Assembly: GCA_902762795.1 (NCBI GenBank)
Contig: CACWPM010000022.1
Location: forward strand, 1-64,000
DNA length: 64,000 bases
Origin: Fibrobacter succinogenes
GTDB lineage: Bacteria; Fibrobacterota; Fibrobacteria; Fibrobacterales; Fibrobacteraceae
Direction of reading: 5' to 3'
This document shows positions 2,668-37,893 of the stretch, piece by piece; position 1 is the first letter of the stretch; the number at the start of each line of letters is the position of its first letter. Both the position numbers and the translations under genes were made by a program. Below the pieces are notes generated by a model that searched no databases, was not told the origin of the DNA, and worked only from the letters and a program-made list of their open reading frames with translations.

Positions 2668-3783
2668 ATGAATTTGCGTGAGTTTATTTTTGGCATGGTG
2701 TCGGCAGCGGCTTTGGCCTCTTCGTTTGCGCTTTCACTTTCTGTTACGGCATGCGGTGATTCTGATGGTTCGCCCGCGGCTGTGGATGAAAGCTCTTCGT
2801 CTTCGGAGGAATCGAGTTCGGTTGCTGCATCGAGTTCATCAGTTGCGTTGTCGAGTTCTTCTTCGGAGAGGCTTGCGCAATCCTCATCATCTGTGAAATA
2901 TGCCGAAAGCTCGAGCTCGGAAAAGCCTTCGGAATCTTCGAGCGGTCGTACTTCATCAAGTTCCGTTTTTGAGAAACCCGTGGAGTCATCTTTTTCCGGG
3001 ATTCCTGCGGAATCTTCATCTTCCGAGAAGCCCGTGGAATCCTCGGATAGCGGAGTATGTACAAATTGCGATAGCTATACGGCATCGGACCCGATACTTG
3101 TTGAAAATGGTGGCAAAGGTTCTGTGACGACTTACGGGAGCGTCACGGAAAAAGAAACGAGTCTCGGTGGCGCCTGTAATTATGGACAAACAAACATCCA
3201 GTATTATGCGGCTATTCATGTGAACGTTTCTCCGGGCGATGATAAAGGCCCGTGGGATGGTGGCATGGCTTGTGGCGGATGTGTCCACGTGAAGGCAAAA
3301 ACGCCGGATGGTTGGAAAGAGGTGACTGTGCGCATTACCGACCGTTGCCCGGATGCAAATTGCGGAGTAGATTTGGGCGGAGCTCCTGCTAGCGATATCA
3401 TGGGAAGCCGTGTCGGGCGTTATTACGGTGAATGGGAATTTGTGAGCTGCGAAGGCGTCGAGGGCGTGTGGGGCGACTCCACGTCTATCTGGGTCAAGGA
3501 AGGCGCCAGCAAATACTGGAGTATCATTCAAGTGCGCAATCCGAAAGATGCTGTTCGCAAAATTGTGATTCGCGAGATGAATGGCGATAAGAGTTACACT
3601 CTCGAAATGGTTGTTGGCACAGAAAACTTCTGGACGGTGCCACAAGAAATTTTGCAGTCGGATAAAAGCTATAGTGTTCTAGTGAGTTACCGCAGCGGTA
3701 CAGATGACGAATGGATTTTGAAAGGCCTTGATTTAGCTAAGCCCGAGGAAACCCTTTATTTGCACGATTTCCGGAAGAAATAA
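2668..3783 (+). CDS. Expansin-like lipoprotein (double-psi barrel plus C-terminal domain) with serine-rich linker
   Basis: This 371-residue protein starts with a lipobox (SVTAC, Cys29). A serine/glutamate-rich linker of about 100 residues follows. The rest resembles bacterial expansins: a double-psi beta-barrel with GGACNYG, a CGGCVHV disulfide region and the TDRCPDANCGVDLG segment holding the expansin aspartate, then a beta-sandwich-like C-terminal domain of the type that binds cellulose. Expansins loosen plant cell walls without hydrolysis, which suits a surface-attached fibre degrader. The ATG at 2668 puts the signal peptide in frame; ATG 2653 would add five residues. RlpA-type lytic transglycosylases share the barrel fold, but the aspartate motif and the second domain favour expansin. 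Confidence 0.8.
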   Translation: MNLREFIFGMVSAAALASSFALSLSVTACGDSDGSPAAVDESSSSSEESSSVAASSSSVALSSSSSERLAQSSSSVKYAESSSSEKPSESSSGRTSSSSVFEKPVESSFSGIPAESSSSEKPVESSDSGVCTNCDSYTASDPILVENGGKGSVTTYGSVTEKETSLGGACNYGQTNIQYYAAIHVNVSPGDDKGPWDGGMACGGCVHVKAKTPDGWKEVTVRITDRCPDANCGVDLGGAPASDIMGSRVGRYYGEWEFVSCEGVEGVWGDSTSIWVKEGASKYWSIIQVRNPKDAVRKIVIREMNGDKSYTLEMVVGTENFWTVPQEILQSDKSYSVLVSYRSGTDDEWILKGLDLAKPEETLYLHDFRKK

Positions 3784-3856
3784 GTTTGTATATTTGCTTT
3801 TAATGTTACGCCTAAACAAAATTGAGTGATTGGGCTTTATTCAAAAAGGAGTTGGC

Positions 3857-27593: not shown

Positions 27594-29345
27594 ATGAAAA
27601 CTGTATTGAAATTCTTTATTGCTGCTGCTATTTTCACGGGTGTTGCCGTGAGTGATTCTACGAGCTTCACTATTCATGTCGTAGGAGATTCAACGGTGCA
27701 AACCTATAAAGACAACGCTTATCCGCAAACGGGGTGGGGTCAGGTCATTGGCTACTTCTTCGATGGAGCCCGTGTCAAGGTAAACAATGCGGCTCTCGGC
27801 GGTCGCAGCTCCAGGACGTTTATTGAAGAAGGTCGTTTGGATGGAGCGCTGAAATCGGCTCAGAAGGGCGATTACCTTTTTGTGCAATTTGGACACAACG
27901 ATCGTGATTACAGCAAGGCGGCACGCTATGTGGAACCTAAAGATTTTCCGGGATACATTCAAAAATATGTCGATGCGGGTCAAAAGAAGGGCGTGAATGT
28001 CATTCTTATTTCGCCGATGAACTTGAACGGTAGCCGTAATGTGTTCTCGACGGGAAACAATAACTATGATGCGCGTGGAATGATGCAGACGGTTGCAAAA
28101 AACAATAAAATCCCGTTTGTCGATTTGAACATGAAATCGTACAATACGTACAATACGACGTACAAATCGATACCGGATTACGTAACACGTTATTTGTACA
28201 AAAAATTGGAAAAGGGCGAATATCCGAATTATCCCGATGGCGTGAACGATGGCACGACGCACTTTCAGGAAATGGGTTCGATGGGCCATGCGCAAATGAT
28301 TTGCGAAGAACTCGAAGAAAATCTCAAGTCGAATTCTAATTTGTCTGCTGAGGCGAAGGCGGGGCTTACAACGCTTGTGTCTGCTATCAAAAAACGTTAT
28401 ACCATCCATGTCAAGACAAATCTCACGAATTACAATGGCCTCATTACGCAGACGCAATATTTCCCGGCGGGTTCCCCGATGACGCTCCGTGTGACGCCGA
28501 ACGGCCAGACGTTTGAAAAGTGGGTCGATGACGACTGCAAAGAAATTTCGAACAAGATGATTTATTACGGGTTCAAAACAAAAGCCCGTGACATTACTTA
28601 TACCGCTATGTTCAAGGGCGGCGCGGCTTGCACTCCAATTTCGCATGGGACTGAAGAATCGACAAATTTAAGTTCTGGCGGACCGAACAGTTCTAGCAGT
28701 TCCGGAGGCGATGTCGCGGCGACGGATCTTGCCGATGAACTTTGTTCGCTCGATGCGGGCACGGATGCTTGGCCGTCCGTGATCGAAACGTATCAACCTG
28801 AAATTGCAGACGGCTTCTCGGAATATAATCACGAAGGCTATACGGGCAAGGGCTTTTTCAATTTTGAAAATTCTGCATATAGCAAGGCAACGTATATGGT
28901 GACTTCGGACCAGTCGGCTGAAAAAGCCCGCGTACTGGTGCGTTATTCATTTGCAGGGGATGCAAACCGCAACATGAAGGTTACGATTGACAACGGCGTT
29001 TATGATGTTGTTTTTTCGCCGACCGCATCGTGGGACGTTTGGGATACGGTCTATATTGATAACGTTTGGGTGGATGCGTTGGATTTCAAGGTGACTTTTC
29101 AATCCGCTTCCGCTGATGGTGGACCGAATATCGATATGATTGCATTTGACATGGCGAATGTTTATCGCACAGGATGCAAGACGGCTCGGAAAAAACATGG
29201 ACAGGTTTCTATAGCTGCTAAAAAAATTGTGATAAAGCCGCAGAATGAAGGCTGGACCGTCAATGCCCTGGGTCAAAAAGTGATGAAAAATGTTGACCAT
29301 GCGGATTTGCGCAAGCTCTCGAAAGGCTACTATTTCCGCTATTAA
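27594..29345 (+). CDS. Second CE12-type pectin acetylesterase with CBM35-like domain
   Basis: A 583-residue secreted SGNH hydrolase, related to but distinct from the gene at 25611. Block I is HVVGDSTVQTY, block II is NNAALGGRSSRTF, block III is VQFGHNDRDYS, and the His block is DGTTHFQEMGSMGHAQ. All fit CE12. A short Ser/Gly linker (about residue 365) leads to a CBM35-like module (DGFSEYNHEGYTGKGFFNF, ASADGGPNIDMIAF), and the end (WTVNALGQKVMKN to GYYFRY) resembles a sorting tail. The closest esterases may act on differently placed acetyl groups, but that is inference. No ribosome site is seen because 7-nt repeats abut the ATG. Confidence 0.87.
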   Translation: MKTVLKFFIAAAIFTGVAVSDSTSFTIHVVGDSTVQTYKDNAYPQTGWGQVIGYFFDGARVKVNNAALGGRSSRTFIEEGRLDGALKSAQKGDYLFVQFGHNDRDYSKAARYVEPKDFPGYIQKYVDAGQKKGVNVILISPMNLNGSRNVFSTGNNNYDARGMMQTVAKNNKIPFVDLNMKSYNTYNTTYKSIPDYVTRYLYKKLEKGEYPNYPDGVNDGTTHFQEMGSMGHAQMICEELEENLKSNSNLSAEAKAGLTTLVSAIKKRYTIHVKTNLTNYNGLITQTQYFPAGSPMTLRVTPNGQTFEKWVDDDCKEISNKMIYYGFKTKARDITYTAMFKGGAACTPISHGTEESTNLSSGGPNSSSSSGGDVAATDLADELCSLDAGTDAWPSVIETYQPEIADGFSEYNHEGYTGKGFFNFENSAYSKATYMVTSDQSAEKARVLVRYSFAGDANRNMKVTIDNGVYDVVFSPTASWDVWDTVYIDNVWVDALDFKVTFQSASADGGPNIDMIAFDMANVYRTGCKTARKKHGQVSIAAKKIVIKPQNEGWTVNALGQKVMKNVDHADLRKLSKGYYFRY

Positions 29346-29808
29346 AAACGAAAAAGTCATTTTTGGTCGAAATTTACGTAAATATTTGCAAAAATATCTT
29401 GATTTTTACGTAAAATTTTAACGTTGTATGTAATAAAAGTCCGCTTGTGTGCGGACTTTAGCTTTAAAAAGTGTTTTTTGGGGGATTTTTGAGGCTTGAA
29501 AAGCCAATTGAATGGTCGCGAAAGTCCGATTTTACGGAAATTTGAAGAGTTTGTCTGAAATTTTACGTCAAAAATTTTAAAATAGGGAGATTTTTACGTA
29601 AAAAACGGGCTTTTTTCATTTTTTCAAAAAAAATAACACATTTTTCACAACGTAATGTGGACATTAAATTTGCAAAACTGTGGACAATTATGTATATTGC
29701 TATCAGTAACTCCTTCTAATAAAAGGAGATGCCCGATTGAATCGGGCATGACAATCACAAGCTCAGACCCCAAAGGGGCGAAGCCCCGCCCTCATAGCCC
29801 ATAGCTCA
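29346..29808. promoter_or_regulatory. Palindrome-rich control region before the TIGR02147 gene
   Basis: This 463-base spacer has no gene. TTTACGTAAA occurs at 29373, 29405 and 29593; near copies TTTACGGAAA (29531) and TTTACGTCAA (29562) lie between. Steps are 32, 126, 31 and 31 bases, about three helical turns or multiples. A hairpin AAAGTCCGC/GCGGACTTT (29436-29459) may end the esterase transcript. GTTTTTTGGGGGA (29472-29484) recurs near 6635. TGTGGAC sites lie at 29656 and 29679. Confidence 0.7.
29723..29752. repeat. REP-like hairpin element
   Basis: GGAGATGCCCGATT followed by ATCGGGCATGAC forms a hairpin with nine paired bases. Elements with this GGAGATGCC...GGCATGAC frame occur as dispersed repeats; a related one lies inside the FISUMP gene at 35069. 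A GGGGC-gaa-GCCCC hairpin (29775-29787) follows. Confidence 0.55.
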
Positions 29809-30822
29809 ATGATCAATATCTTTGAATATCTGAATTACCGCGAATTTTTGAAAGACGCTTACGAAGAGCGCCATGCAAGCGATTGGCGCTTTAGCCATCG
29901 TTTTATTGCTGATAAGGCGGGTTTTGATTCATCGATGTTCAATAAAATTTTGCAGGGCAAGCGCAACCTGACGGGGCGTATTATCGATGTCTTTGCGTCC
30001 ATTTTTTGTAATGATGATCGAGAAAAAGCATACTTTGCAAATATGGTGGCGTTCAACCAGGCGAAAACTCATTCCGAAAGCCGTCAATTCTTGGAAAAAC
30101 TCGTGGCATCCAAAGAATGCAAGGTCGAGAATTTGGCGAAGGATCAGTTTGAATATTTTGACCATTGGTATCATGCGGTTGTTCGTGAACTGGTGACTTT
30201 TTACCCTTATGTGGGCGATGACGCCGCTTTGGGACTCATGGTGCGTCCGCCTATATCTGCAAGCCAGGTCAAATCTTCGATAGCGCTTTTGGAACGCCTT
30301 TCGATGATTAAGAAAAATGAACAGACGGGCTTTTACGAACAAACGCAAGGCCTTGTCTCGAGTGGATTCGAATCGTACAATACGGCGGTGAACGCTTATA
30401 TTCAGCAAAATTTGGATGTGGCGCAGTCTGCGATGGATCGCTTTGATCGCAGCGAACGCAATCTTTCGACACTTGCATTTGGCTGTGACGAAGATACATA
30501 TAAAGAACTTGTCGAAATGGTGCGTCGTTTCCGCCGGGAAGTTCTTGCGAAAGTGGGGGCTTGCCAAAAACCGAATCGCGTGTTCCAACTGGGCTTGCAG
30601 CTTTTCCCTCTTTCTGATCCGTATCCGCCACCGCAGAGGCGTGGACGCAAACGCCGCATTCGTGGTGCGGAACTTCAAACGTTGATCGCGGGCGAATGCG
30701 CTGCGGACGATATTGCAGCGTCTTTTGTTGATGCAAGTAAGTCGCGCGATTCTCGTGCCGTAGATGATTCTCGTGCCGTGGATGAAACTGATAAAATTCA
30801 AGGGGACCATCATGAAAGTTAA
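29809..30822 (+). CDS. TIGR02147-family transcriptional regulator (DUF4423 type)
   Basis: A 337-residue cytoplasmic protein of the TIGR02147 paralogous family known from Fibrobacter and few other bacteria. The start FEYLNYREFLKDAYEE and the helix-turn-helix-like RFIADKAGFDSSMFNKILQG, written here as RFIADKAGFDSS then MFNKILQGKRNL, are typical. The C-terminal region (SIALLERLSMIKKNEQTGFYE) looks like a winged helix. The last 50 residues are basic then Asp/Arg-rich and vary. Its 3' end overlaps the PL1 gene by 11 bases, so the two are translated together. The palindrome array just upstream is a natural candidate for its binding sites. The ligand is unknown; the partner lipoprotein hints at pectin. 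Confidence 0.85.
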   Translation: MINIFEYLNYREFLKDAYEERHASDWRFSHRFIADKAGFDSSMFNKILQGKRNLTGRIIDVFASIFCNDDREKAYFANMVAFNQAKTHSESRQFLEKLVASKECKVENLAKDQFEYFDHWYHAVVRELVTFYPYVGDDAALGLMVRPPISASQVKSSIALLERLSMIKKNEQTGFYEQTQGLVSSGFESYNTAVNAYIQQNLDVAQSAMDRFDRSERNLSTLAFGCDEDTYKELVEMVRRFRREVLAKVGACQKPNRVFQLGLQLFPLSDPYPPPQRRGRKRRIRGAELQTLIAGECAADDIAASFVDASKSRDSRAVDDSRAVDETDKIQGDHHES

Positions 30823-33381: not shown

Positions 33382-34665
33382 ATGCTTAAATCTACATTGC
33401 AACAGACCGATCCGGAAATCTATAACATTATTCAGAAGGAAGCCGAACGCCAGGAATACGGCATCGAACTTATCGCTTCTGAAAACTACACTTCCAAGGC
33501 TGTGATGGAAGCCATGGGTTCCGTCCTCACCAACAAGTACAGCGAAGGTTACGTTGGTAAGCGTTACTATGGTGGTAACGAAGTTATTGACGAAATGGAA
33601 GCTCTCGCTATCGATCGTTGCAAGAAGCTCTTTGGTTGCGACCACGTGAACATCCAGCCACTGTCCGGTTCTCCGGCAAACGCCGCTGTCTATTTCGCCG
33701 TCCTCAAGCCGGGTGACAAGGTCCTCGGCCTCAAGCTCGACCACGGTGGACACCTTTCTCACGGCCATCCGGTGAATTTCTCCGGCATGCTCTACAACTT
33801 CGTGCAGTACGAAGTCGATAAGGAAACGGGCCGCATCGACATGGACAAGGTTCGCGAAATTGCTCTTCGCGAAAAGCCGAAGATGATCCTCGCCGGTTTC
33901 TCTGCCTACAGCCGTAACCTTGACTGGAAGCGCTTCAAGGAAATCGCAGACGAAGTTGGCGCTCTCACGATGGCCGACATCTCTCACATTGCTGGTCTCA
34001 TCGCTGGTAAGGCTATCGATTCTCCGGTGCCGTACTTCGACATCGTGACGACCACGACCCACAAGACTCTCCGTGGCCCGCGTTCCGCTATCATCATGTG
34101 CAAGGACCGCATGATCCAGAAGATGGTGAAGGGCGAACTCAAGGAAGTTTCCCTCGCTAAGGAAATCGACAAGGGTGTGTTCCCGGGTATGCAGGGTGGT
34201 CCGCATGACCACGTGAACGCTGGTAAGGCTGTTGCATTCCTCGAAGCTTTGCAGCCGGAATTCCAGGTCTATGCAAAGAATGTTATCAAGAACGCTCAGG
34301 CCATGTGCGCCGAAATGCAGAAGCTCGGCTACAAGGTTATTAGCGATGGCACCGACAACCACCTCATCGTTGTCGATATGACCTCCAAGGGCGTTTCCGG
34401 TAAGGAAGCCGAAGTGGCCATGGAAAAGGTCGGCATCTCTTGCAGCCGTTCTACGATTCCGTTCGATCCGCGCAAGCCGATGGATCCGTCCGGTGTCCGT
34501 CTCGGTACTGCCGCTATCACGACTCGTGGCTTCGACGAAGAAGACACCCGCGAAGTGGCCCGCATCATTGACCGCGCCATCCAGGCTAAGGACGACGAAG
34601 CTGGTCTCGCCAAGATCCGCGAAGACATCGTCGCTCTCTGCAAGAAGCATCCGCTTTACAAGTAA
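33382..34665 (+). CDS. glyA: Serine hydroxymethyltransferase
   Basis: GlyA converts serine and tetrahydrofolate to glycine and 5,10-methylene-tetrahydrofolate, the main one-carbon source; ThyA at 62.4 kb uses that cofactor. The 427-residue protein is of normal length and complete. The PLP lysine is Lys228 in TTTTHKTLRGPR. IELIASENYTS, YSEGYVGKRYYGGNE, and HGGHLSHG are conserved family segments. AAGGAG lies 6 bases before the ATG and a TATATT box is at 33349-33354. Codon use is strongly biased to AAG/GAA/CTC, as in highly expressed genes. Confidence 0.97.
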   Translation: MLKSTLQQTDPEIYNIIQKEAERQEYGIELIASENYTSKAVMEAMGSVLTNKYSEGYVGKRYYGGNEVIDEMEALAIDRCKKLFGCDHVNIQPLSGSPANAAVYFAVLKPGDKVLGLKLDHGGHLSHGHPVNFSGMLYNFVQYEVDKETGRIDMDKVREIALREKPKMILAGFSAYSRNLDWKRFKEIADEVGALTMADISHIAGLIAGKAIDSPVPYFDIVTTTTHKTLRGPRSAIIMCKDRMIQKMVKGELKEVSLAKEIDKGVFPGMQGGPHDHVNAGKAVAFLEALQPEFQVYAKNVIKNAQAMCAEMQKLGYKVISDGTDNHLIVVDMTSKGVSGKEAEVAMEKVGISCSRSTIPFDPRKPMDPSGVRLGTAAITTRGFDEEDTREVARIIDRAIQAKDDEAGLAKIREDIVALCKKHPLYK

Positions 34666-34696
34666 AGTGTAGCGGGGCAAACGCTCCGCGTGTTGC

Positions 34697-34763
34697 GTCA
34701 TCCTGAGCGTAGCGAAGGATCCTGTCCAGAATATTGGCGGCCCGTTAAAACGGGTCGCTTTTT
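34697..34763 (+). terminator. Repeat element followed by the glyA terminator
   Basis: GTCATCCTGAGCG then TAGCGAAGGATCC (34697-34722) is a dispersed self-complementary repeat seen in many bacteria. It precedes a terminator with arms GCGGCCCGTT (34737-34746) and AACGGGTCGC (34749-34758, one wobble) and a T run. Confidence 0.7.
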
Positions 34764-34794
34764 ATATATAGAAAAAGCACAAAATTGCCAAAGT

Positions 34795-35022
34795 GGCGGT
34801 GAAATGGCGGAAAAATTGTCGTTTTCACTGCCGGAATTTACTTTGTGTGTATAAAAATAAGCCTTTTTCGTGTTGCAGAACATGATGCTGGCGGTGAAAT
34901 GGAAGAAAAATGTTCAAAATCACCGCCGTGTGCGGCCTTTGTGGGACGAAAATGAACAAAATTGTATGGATAAACTAATAAAGTGGCGGTGAAATAGCGG
35001 AAAAATTGTCGTTTTCACCGCC
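34795..35022. repeat. Three-unit inverted-repeat array with exact 95-bp period
   Basis: GGCGGTGAAA at 34795, 34890 and 34985 each faces an inverted arm (TTTCACTGCC at 34823, AATCACCGCC at 34918, TTTCACCGCC at 35013). Arm spacing is 28 bases start to start in all three and the units repeat every 95 bases. Spacers between units share CTTTGTG and AAAAT(A/G)A at similar places. The array ends 46 bases before the FISUMP lipoprotein start and otherwise fills the gap after glyA. Confidence 0.85.
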
Positions 35023-35068
35023 AGAAAGGGAATTTTCTACCAACGGCTACAGAAAGATTCTATTATAC

Positions 35069-35620
35069 ATGCGACACCTTTGGCTTGGAATTCTTGCTTG
35101 TGCGGCGATGCTTGTCGCTTGCGGTGACGACGGTAGCGATTTCTCGACGCGGCCTTCGGAAGGGTCTTCATCCGGCGCGTTCAGTAGCAGCCGTCATCCC
35201 GGGTTTGATCCGGAATCTAGCAGTAAGGGAGATGGCGGATCCCATTCGTCAAGCTCAAGGCAGGCTCTGTCCGCCATGACGAGCAGCAGTTCTGCGATTT
35301 GGAAAACGGCATGGAATTATTTGAACCCAAATATTGATTACCAAGAGTTTGTGGATGACCGCGATGGGCAGACCTACAAGTTTGTGAAAATCGGTGACCA
35401 TTGGTGGATGGCTGAGAACCTGAATTTTGAAGTAGATTCCAGTTTCTGTTACAAGGATTCTGCCGAATATTGCGAGAAGTATGGTCGCCTATACAAGTGG
35501 GAAGTTACGGATCATGTTTGCCCGAGCGGTTGGTACTTGCCTGGTAATGGTGATTTTGAAATGTTTACAAGCATGCTCGCTGCTCATACCTCATTGCTCA
35601 TCCCTTTATGCAACGAATGA
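35069..35620 (+). CDS. FISUMP-domain (TIGR02145) lipoprotein, C-terminally truncated
   Basis: A 183-residue lipoprotein (AAMLVAC, Cys18) with a serine-rich linker and the first half of a FISUMP domain: DDRDGQTYKFVKIGDHWWMAENLNF, quoted here as DDRDGQTYKFVKIGDHWW then MAENLNF, with YGRLYKW and CPSGWYLPGNGDF. The domain then loses its second half (no SGW, FGFSALP or VRCLKD) and ends in an unrelated tail, SLLIPLCNE. It is therefore probably a decayed gene. Linker bases of about 35190-35279 carry REP-type sequence (GGAGATGGCGGATCC to TCCGCCATGAC) read in frame. No clear ribosome site is seen; TATTAT lies two bases before the ATG. The 95-bp repeat array lies just upstream. Confidence 0.7.
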   Translation: MRHLWLGILACAAMLVACGDDGSDFSTRPSEGSSSGAFSSSRHPGFDPESSSKGDGGSHSSSSRQALSAMTSSSSAIWKTAWNYLNPNIDYQEFVDDRDGQTYKFVKIGDHWWMAENLNFEVDSSFCYKDSAEYCEKYGRLYKWEVTDHVCPSGWYLPGNGDFEMFTSMLAAHTSLLIPLCNE

Positions 35621-35718
35621 AACAAAATCATAATCCGTTTACTTCAAAATAAACTCGGTTGTGTTCCTTTACCTTATTTAGATTATATATTGATAAATAG
35701 CTTAAGGGAATTTCTGTC

Positions 35719-37893
35719 ATGAAATTATTTTGTTGCAAAATTGTCGGCCTCAGATTTTGGGTGATTTGTGGTGCATTGCTTGTTTTTACGGCTTGCCAAG
35801 ATAATTCATCTTCGGTTTTTGATTTAGACAATGAATCCTCTAGTTCATCGGCTCAACGTTCAACTCCCAGAAAACTTGATTTATCTTCGTCTAGTTCGCG
35901 GGTTCCTGTCGTTTATGATAAAGATCCGAAATTTGCATGCTCCGATTCTACGAAAATCTTTGGAGAATTTACAGATGCTCGTGATGGGCATGTTTATAAG
36001 ACTGTTAAAATTGGGGATCAAGTTTGGATGGCGGAAAACTTGGAGTATAATCGTGAAAGACATACGGGCGATTCGAAGTATTATTATTCCTGGGTTGATG
36101 CTGTTGGGGGAATCGCTGCGGGTTGCTCTGGCGATGATGGTTCTGTAAGATTTATTAGCGATTATGTTTATAAAAATCGTTTTGTCTATGACGGTGTAAC
36201 ATTTCAAAATTGCCCTATTGCACGGCCAGCTCGCGGTCTATGCCCTGAAGGTTGGCGCATCCCTACTATAGAAGATTTTCAAACATTGCTGGATTACGCT
36301 GGGGGTTCGAAATATGCCGGTAAGTATCTGAAATCAACTACAGGATGGAGTGGTGTTGGAAACGGATTAGATTGTTTTGGCTTTAATGCATTGCCTTCTT
36401 ATAGTAAAGACGATCCAAATGGCCTTTTTGAAGATCTTCATATTTTGACAGACGAACCAAAAGCATTGTACATGTCTTATAAAAATGCTTTTGCGTATTT
36501 TACTTCTGTGACAACATATGATGCGAGTGCACATGTTGTCCGCTGCATTCAGGGTGAAGGGAGAGAGGGGCTGGATATCCAAATTGACCGTGCCGAGAAT
36601 ACATACGCAGGGCCTTTTGAATCGTTTACGGATACCCGCGATGGGCATGTTTATAAAACAGTCGATATTGGCGGTTGGGTCTGGATGGCCGAAAATTTAT
36701 CTTATGGTTCCAAAGAGACTTACACTTATGAAGAGATGATAAATGCTCCAGTTACGGGATGCTATTTAGACAGTTTAATATGGGGCGATGATTACGGAAT
36801 GTGGAGCTATTGCTCTGCCGAATATCCTGTTCAGGGGATTTGTCCAGATGGCTGGCATGTTCCGAGTTCTTATGAATGGAGAGTCCTGAGTGCCTTTGTA
36901 AATGGTTTAAGCAATGCGACAAATTTTGCAGAAGGTGCTTATACAGGACCGATGCTGAAATCTACGAGTGGCTGGCCTGATGGAAAAAACGGCCTTGATG
37001 CATACGGCTTTGGTGCTAAGCCTCTTGAAGGAAAAGATCAGGTCCGCTTTTGGTCTTCAACGAATGCGGCAACCATATGGGATTGGTTCGGCAATGTCGT
37101 TTTGACAATTGGTGCTGACAGTGCTAGGTTAAAAACGGATGAAATTAATGGCTCCTATGAGGCTTCTGTCCGCTGTCTTAAAGATGATGATAGTCAAATG
37201 CGAACGTCTTCGTCGCCTTCTGATTATTCGATAAAGCTTGATGAACCTACAACTTATTCTGGCGAGTATGGCAAGTTTACAGATGAACGAGATGGCAATG
37301 TCTATAGAACTGTTGATATCGATGGTACAGTTTGGTTTGCAGATAACCTAAAATACGAAGTTCCGGATGCGTTGTCTTTTTGCAATTGTGCCGATACGAC
37401 ATCGTGTGATAGCCGTGGTCGCTTGTATCCTTGGAATGTGGCGAAAAATGTGTGTCCTGCTGGTTGGCGCTTGCCTTCTGTAGAAGAGGCCAATCATTTA
37501 TTAACGTTTGCTGCCCAAACTAAGTACGATTTGGGTGGTTTTGAACGCACTGAAAGATTTTTTAAGGATACTGTAGGTTGGAAATATAAAGATGGCTACA
37601 ATACGTTCGGGTTTAGTGCAGTCCCTGCAGGTGAGATGTTTTATCGTTTTGATTCGTTATCTGTTATTGACGAAGAATCTTGTAATGTTCCCAAGGGCTA
37701 CGATGAATTGATGCTAACTGGGTGGTCTGTTTCAGCTGGTTATTGGGTCGATGGTGAAAATGCGAAGGGAGAACAAGCCTATTTATATATAAACGAATCT
37801 GGAGTCAGTGAATTCGTTTCTTGGTATCCAACACCGCCTAATACGTTCAAAAACTATTATAGGGCAATTTCTGTCCGCTGCGTCAAAGAATAG
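35719..37893 (+). CDS. Lipoprotein with three FISUMP domains (TIGR02145)
   Basis: A 724-residue lipoprotein (LVFTAC, Cys26). After a short serine linker it carries three consecutive FISUMP domains, starting near residues 85, 295 and 510 at FTDARDGHVYKTVKIG, FTDTRDGHVYKTVDIG and FTDERDGNVYRTVDID. Each has the (W/V)WMAENL-type strand, CPxGWR/HxP and a closing SVRC(L/V)K or VVRCIQ. The fold resembles formylglycine-generating/C-type-lectin-like domains, but no enzyme activity is known. Several cysteines per domain suggest disulfides and so an extracellular place. It is intact, unlike its truncated neighbour. AAGGGA precedes the ATG. Confidence 0.85.
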   Translation: MKLFCCKIVGLRFWVICGALLVFTACQDNSSSVFDLDNESSSSSAQRSTPRKLDLSSSSSRVPVVYDKDPKFACSDSTKIFGEFTDARDGHVYKTVKIGDQVWMAENLEYNRERHTGDSKYYYSWVDAVGGIAAGCSGDDGSVRFISDYVYKNRFVYDGVTFQNCPIARPARGLCPEGWRIPTIEDFQTLLDYAGGSKYAGKYLKSTTGWSGVGNGLDCFGFNALPSYSKDDPNGLFEDLHILTDEPKALYMSYKNAFAYFTSVTTYDASAHVVRCIQGEGREGLDIQIDRAENTYAGPFESFTDTRDGHVYKTVDIGGWVWMAENLSYGSKETYTYEEMINAPVTGCYLDSLIWGDDYGMWSYCSAEYPVQGICPDGWHVPSSYEWRVLSAFVNGLSNATNFAEGAYTGPMLKSTSGWPDGKNGLDAYGFGAKPLEGKDQVRFWSSTNAATIWDWFGNVVLTIGADSARLKTDEINGSYEASVRCLKDDDSQMRTSSSPSDYSIKLDEPTTYSGEYGKFTDERDGNVYRTVDIDGTVWFADNLKYEVPDALSFCNCADTTSCDSRGRLYPWNVAKNVCPAGWRLPSVEEANHLLTFAAQTKYDLGGFERTERFFKDTVGWKYKDGYNTFGFSAVPAGEMFYRFDSLSVIDEESCNVPKGYDELMLTGWSVSAGYWVDGENAKGEQAYLYINESGVSEFVSWYPTPPNTFKNYYRAISVRCVKE

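Follow-up and report, generated by a model that had tools for sequence, protein, structure and literature searches.

What is the role of an array of evenly spaced palindromes lying between glyA and a FISUMP gene in a Fibrobacter succinogenes genome? The locus belongs to a stretch of 64,000 nucleotides analyzed here as a whole and referred to below as the window (contig CACWPM010000022.1, assembly GCA_902762795.1), and it raises the question of whether such an array is a local control element of its neighbor or one member of a wider population of repeats.

The Array between glyA and the FISUMP Gene

A first-pass annotation of this DNA had reported three inverted-repeat units at 34795–35022, with a unit step of exactly 95 bases occurring twice, and both the positions and the step hold: three palindromic units of 38 bp, each made of two 10-bp arms flanking 18 bases, lie between the two genes with start-to-start distances of 95 and 95 bp (table 1). 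The sequence said to be common to the interiors of units 1 and 3 is likewise there. The statement that the same arms recur three times needs to be narrowed, since there are indeed three palindromes but exact arms are found in unit 3 only: a single mismatch is present in unit 1, unit 2 has AAAATCACCGCC as its right arm, which differs from TTTCACCGCC at two positions, and unit 3 is the sole occurrence of the exact pattern GGCGGTGAAA-N18-TTTCACCGCC within the array. Including the conserved AAAATTGCCAAAGT ahead of unit 1, the full element spans approximately 34781–35027 and does not fill the intergenic gap as had been described, because it is preceded by about 130 bp that include a terminator-like hairpin (near 34740–34765). 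In the inner bases of window-type units, pairing stops at the arms, and a search of Rfam returned no match. On the basis of its sequence, the box ATAAACTAA before unit 3 is a possible −10 element directed to the FISUMP gene. The region downstream of glyA (34665–37893 in the window, loci L084–L113) is highly variable genus-wide, with differing FISUMP-type genes or none.

Table 1. Palindromic units, conserved flanks, and boxes of the two arrays in the window, with the pattern matches in the same genome (G000).
Feature	Coordinates	Strand	Sequence or description	Basis or remark
Outer flank of unit 1, conserved	34781..34794	+	AAAATTGCCAAAGT; consensus AAAATGCAAAAGT	Alignment of 24 arrays
Window unit 1	34795..34832	.	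Palindrome, one arm mismatch (TTTCACTGCC)	
Inward box, conserved	34838..34851	+	TTACTTTGTGTGTA; TTAnnTTRT, leftward A[CT]AAnnTAA	About 5 bp inside unit 1
Window unit 2	34890..34927	.	Palindrome, right arm AAAATCACCGCC	As in most middle units of the window array type
Box, conserved	34970..34978	+	ATAAACTAA; A[CT]AAnnTAA	Ends 6 bp before unit 3
Window unit 3	34985..35022	.	Palindrome, perfect arms	
Second orphan array, first unit	29373..29413	.	Arms TTTACGTAA	
Second orphan array, box inside first unit	29418..29432	+	TTAACGTTGTATGTA	
Second orphan array, last unit	29562..29602	.	Arms TTTACGTCA	Step 189 bp = 18 turns
G000 pattern matches	Window array; C9:96120/96225/96320; C4:10083		Window array; three-unit array on C9; single unit on C4	Steps 105 and 95 on C9

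Window-Type Arrays across the Genus Fibrobacter

A fixed pattern allowing at most one mismatch gave seven matches in the array's own genome, against zero for a reversed control, and the sister array found in this way lies directly 3′ of an unannotated gene for a nuclease-like protein. The first-pass annotation had proposed a search of the genus, and copies are indeed found elsewhere: the window-type pattern occurs in 11 of 80 Fibrobacter genomes, with the reversed control giving none in the 80, numbers far in excess of chance. Arrays of this type number about eleven in G088 and about seven each in G071 and G006. In a collection spanning 84,980 named species, 20 Fibrobacter contigs, one Clostridium symbiosum contig, and one Desulfovibrio contig contain the exact 20-base pattern. 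The single exact matches outside Fibrobacter (4652–4689 in L064, [Clostridium] symbiosum; 603–640 in L062, a Desulfovibrio MAG) may stem from chance, contamination, or transfer. A viral origin was also considered and rejected, viral contigs holding neither an exact match to the pattern nor a relative of the nuclease-like protein.

The alignment of 24 arrays in one orientation reveals a common layout, in which AAAATGCAAAAGT stands before unit 1, a box TTAnnTTRTnTGTA just inside unit 1, and the inverse of that box directly before unit 3, with the right arm altered in most middle units. The consensus of this alignment, TGGCGGTGAAAT...ATTTCACCGCCA, is preceded by AAAG and followed by ARAA, and carries no GTAG or CGTC tag. 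Neighboring genes belong to the glyA, polA, dnaG, efp, dksA, tmk/secA, and mutS regions. Their orientation can be convergent, divergent, or codirectional, and many of the orphan arrays lie in convergent gaps. A regulon of FISUMP genes was rejected in view of this diversity, and the suggestion of an element for surface proteins finds no support as a general rule, a FISUMP gene being downstream at some loci only. Phase variation, also suggested, finds no support in some 24 intact window-type arrays, none of which has its middle inverted relative to its ends; internal orientation being identical in all intact arrays, an invertible promoter was discarded, and what does occur is collapse to one unit. 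A transposon with a long cargo was rejected too, as a half-element model (R1) yielded half-elements only as close pairs or solos. A divergent two-unit type is found in G066 (arms AAAAAGGCGGTGG; unit distances 157, 158, 167, 168, and 179), and one in G072 (distance 168); in the G066 type, GC-rich stems are bordered by A/T runs and the interiors are partly paired. No paper on Fibrobacter repeats of this kind was found in the open-access literature, and neither the arrays nor the nuclease-like family appear to have been described previously.

Unit Spacings Follow the Helical Turn of DNA

The units are spaced at multiples of 10.52 bp (53, 63, 74, 84, 95, 106, 137, 158, 179, and 200 bp). For 98 steps, each counted once per arm type, the Rayleigh R is 0.885 at this best-fit period, with a residual SD of 0.86 bp, whereas 200 random sets scanned over periods give 0.33 at most; a second batch gave R 0.891 with the period fixed at 10.52 bp, and the window array type alone 0.91, the loci being related by descent, so that the formal p-value is too small to be taken literally. 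Common descent of one spacing is nonetheless insufficient as an explanation because many different turn counts and arm types are involved, with 5 to 11 turns between neighboring units and up to 20 between end units. Window-type steps measure 74, 85, 94–96, 105–106, 108, and 115–116 bp and, when pooled with the G066 and G072 distances, all but 108 deviate from a multiple of 10.5 by about 1 bp at most. Within one locus family, natural indels shift the step by about one turn (74/116 in L050, 74/105 in L060). Some nuclease-like loci have five or six units in helical register (L263:4072–4572, with steps of 65, 137, 64, 137, and 64; L286:4049–4347; L278:2537–2871).

Such multiples place the units on one face of the helix, and the agreement of the period with B-DNA favors a complex of protein with double-stranded DNA. 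These observations point to the arrays as sites of protein–DNA assembly rather than RNA hairpins, and the cognate nuclease-like protein is the most likely partner. The early suggestion of a cooperative element is thus strongly supported by the whole-helical-turn unit spacings seen across arrays.

A Nuclease-Like Gene Family Accompanies the Arrays

The cognate gene family, absent from the first-pass account, encodes unannotated proteins of about 275–315 residues. An array of the window-type group adjoins a family gene in G000, G006, G044, G045, G084, G088, G072, and G066, on both sides in the latter. At the threshold used, the family is present in 50 of 80 Fibrobacter genomes, with 0 to 8 members per genome, and its genes are syntenic by subtype and look vertically inherited. 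Linkage was assessed by looking for recurrent palindromic units in the 700 bp to either side of each family gene, with arms and step left unspecified. An array accompanied 72 of 77 rows of a first batch (67 of 72 distinct places) and all 20 loci of a second batch not used before; taken together, an array of 2–6 palindromes adjoins 87 of 92 family loci, and five have none within the searched 700 bp on each side. Among 71 window stretches serving as control, one gave a match, itself a real array (29373–29602). Arrays are most often 5′ of the family gene and are found on both sides at about a dozen loci, as direct repeats where checked (L209, L230, L246, L261, L262, L271, L277, L299). In most 5′ arrays, the box is sense-oriented and located about 4–6 bp before the last unit.

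Every paralog has its own arm sequence, and the arms drift in place together with the protein: mean arm similarity rises from 0.53 below 40% N-terminal identity to 0.91 above 90%, a correlation that 0 of 300 permutations equaled in a Mantel test. Gene and array, as seen in both their linkage and this correlation, diverge together. Because arm similarity tracks the N-terminal half of the protein no better than the C-terminal half, this comparison does not locate the domain that would read the arms.

Searches of Pfam, NCBIfam, and PDB with a family protein returned no credible relative. The PADLOC model PDC-S68 matches residues 159–273 with its C-terminal end (E 2.5e-22), and the series SKSE...DF...EH is invariant among 10 diverse members, E170, D204, and E219 being catalytic-looking residues among the invariant ones; it is for this match and this invariance that we call the family nuclease-like. 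The C-terminal half resembles, by its sequence motifs, a PD-(D/E)XK nuclease, though the usual lysine is not evident in it. Matches on plasmids carry the annotation AAA family ATPase or RecD-like helicase. The AlphaFold model has a mean pLDDT of 46.7 and leaves the C-terminal half unmodelled, which renders Foldseek matches from it meaningless.

Orphan Arrays and Their Instability

The arms of the window array are of the type found at the G000:C9 gene. More generally, orphan arms match the array of a resident gene in G000 (two types), in G042, and in G066, where an orphan GGTTACTA array matches the genome's own C27 gene; G071 and G093 hold window-type (GGCGGTGA) arrays with no recognized matching gene. 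The window itself has a second orphan array at 29373–29602, with two TTTTACGTAA-type palindromes and the same box as other arrays, located after a gene at 27594–29345 and before a 337-aa gene at 29809; its arm type is that of the arrays around the G000:C3 nuclease-like gene (L250). In the dksA-adjacent gap, the orphan of G042 (L134:1117–1314) has arms TTACGGAC, like its own gene's arrays, and that of G088 has GGCGGTGA, which would reflect either a shared hot spot or a concerted change of arms.

With identical flanks, the dksA locus has one unit in L026 and three in L052 and L022. The efp locus similarly has one unit in L009, with a unit 3-like interior, and in L180, with a unit 1-like interior, and three in L043 and L057; the polA locus adds a further solo unit (L183). 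L023 and L054 are near-identical through the array, apart from a wholly different unit 1 interior between unchanged arms. The solo units and the swapped interior are most simply read as products of short-repeat recombination at the arms. Neither a clean empty site nor a target duplication was found for orphan arrays at the glyA and dksA loci, where relatives are too diverged. Besides, the same gene-plus-array block is followed by two different partners, acyltransferase-like or radical-SAM-like (L008, L058, and L059 vs. L025, L051, and L061); the junction of the two versions is the end of unit 3, and G088 has both.

A Proposed Mechanism and Its Competitors

The window array is probably an orphan: a copy of the array that serves a nuclease-like DNA-binding protein as its cognate target, in a system of phased dimers, paralog-specific arms, autocontrol, and carried copies. 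Each palindrome of 33–44 bp would bind a dimer, one protomer per arm; as the spacing rule suggests, dimers on one DNA face would join into a single looped or stacked complex, neighbors cooperating through short loops, and each paralog would recognize its own arm sequence. At its own locus, the array usually stands immediately 5′ of the gene and has a box at a fixed place, possibly a −10 element, so that the promoter of that gene is most likely under the control of the complex. Orphan arrays would be copies carried elsewhere, probably with the help of the same protein as cutter or synapser, a role that would also explain the collapse to single units and the swapped interiors, and orphans with a promoter-like box facing a gene may regulate that gene. 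The mobility of the arrays is something we infer. Regulation and selfish spread receive about equal weight in this proposal, and the two may coexist.

Many orphans lie in convergent gaps, where control of a promoter would have little meaning. This counts against the role proposed here for orphans, and also against the idea that the protein is a pure autorepressor with an inactive nuclease fold and the orphan arrays its regulon. Such an operator would suit the location of most arrays 5′ of the gene, their fixed box in sense orientation, the helical phasing reminiscent of looping repressors, and the right-hand box of the window array directed to the FISUMP gene, yet we find it unlikely, given that the catalytic-looking E170, D204, and E219 are invariant and that array type is patchy between species. 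A reading that we hold to be doubtful, though deserving of attention, makes the array a selfish recombination or transposition end, mobilized by the nuclease-like protein in analogy to REPIN–RAYT, with regulation secondary or absent. It would account for orphans at unrelated loci, for genes flanked by arrays on both sides at about a dozen loci, for solo units of either unit 1 or unit 3 interior at orthologous sites (L026, L009, L180, L183), and for the interior exchanged between L023 and L054; however, gene subtypes are syntenic and look vertically inherited, a long element bounded by half-arrays was not found, neither target duplication nor clean empty site was seen, and a recombination end has no obvious need of 3–6 phased units.

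Some toxins are held inactive by repeats, and the arrays could in principle act as DNA antidotes or decoys that keep a toxic nuclease inactive. The tight gene–array linkage, the repeated sites, and a nuclease-like domain common to candidate defense helicase-nucleases are in keeping with this idea, which the existence of family genes without a recognizable array, and of arrays without a gene, makes improbable. As for RNA hairpins or bidirectional terminators, the first-pass annotation had allowed both an operator and a hairpin reading of the arms: the DNA side is borne out by the whole-turn spacings, and the RNA side is disfavored to the point of being very improbable, as the 10.5-bp periodicity, the lack of a T-run after most units, the window-type interiors left unpaired beyond the arms, and the absence of any Rfam match all oppose it, even though the G066 type, with its A/T runs, GC-rich stems, and partly paired interiors, would be compatible with it.

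More tentatively than for the cognate binding array itself, and at somewhat less than even confidence, we suggest that these elements may form a new selfish or regulatory DNA system, in which a stand-alone nuclease-like lineage co-evolves with phased palindrome arrays, seeds copies chromosome-wide, and acts through multiple dimers. What was an isolated repeat has become a genus-wide system with some 90 examined gene–array pairs, which obey a strict physical rule and offer natural arm sequences by the dozen; protein–DNA specificity in an uncharacterized family thereby becomes directly testable. For the question of what maintains populations of palindromic repeats in bacterial genomes, so far tied to REPINs, the system may also provide a second and unrelated answer.

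Comparison with Known Systems

In REPIN–RAYT systems, a gene stands beside palindromes of its own sequence type, further copies of which are intergenic, and a genome can hold several gene types, each with its own palindromes (PMC3733652). The likeness is that cognate palindromes in Fibrobacter are found both at the nuclease-like gene and dispersed in the genome. Unlike REP singlets, pairs, or clusters, the Fibrobacter palindromes come in sets of 2–6 at whole turns, in far fewer copies, and without a GTAG or CGTC end tag. No relation of the protein to HUH/Y1 transposases was found: Pfam and NCBIfam gave no match to an IS200/IS605-like tyrosine (HUH) transposase in the linked gene, which instead has PD-(D/E)XK-like motifs and the PDC-S68 match. 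REPIN–RAYT is the nearest analogue, but the Fibrobacter system is not a member of it, because both tag and transposase type were looked for and neither was found.

Looping repressors of the lac/gal type act through multiple palindromic operators that share one face of the DNA next to a promoter. The Fibrobacter palindromes are comparably arranged on one face, beside a promoter-like box and the gene of the presumed binder, with the whole-turn site separation of looping arrays (R 0.885 and 0.891 at 10.52 bp). They differ in that the sites are 33–44 bp long with widely spaced arms, number up to six, and are paralog-specific, in that whole arrays are repeated elsewhere in the genome, and in that the protein has a nuclease-like domain. 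With PDC-S68, a candidate defense helicase-nuclease, the family shares about 115 homologous C-terminal residues, but here the domain follows a different N-terminal region, without a helicase, and is array-linked. MITEs and insertion-sequence ends are, like the arrays, short dispersed elements with inverted ends, whereas for the Fibrobacter arrays no transposase, target duplication, or long partner was found, and the internal spacing is held to helical turns.

Homologs outside Fibrobacter

Among 16 genomes of Fibrobacterota outside the genus, no family member was detected in a search run without a positive control. Homologs outside Fibrobacter are known here from one unannotated human-gut record alone, in which the repeats 3′ of the gene form no clear phased array. 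In this human-stool record, deposited as phage (L247; MT839528.1), a full-length homolog at 3042–3833 stands beside an ABC transporter gene, and the DNA looks bacterial, probably from Clostridia.
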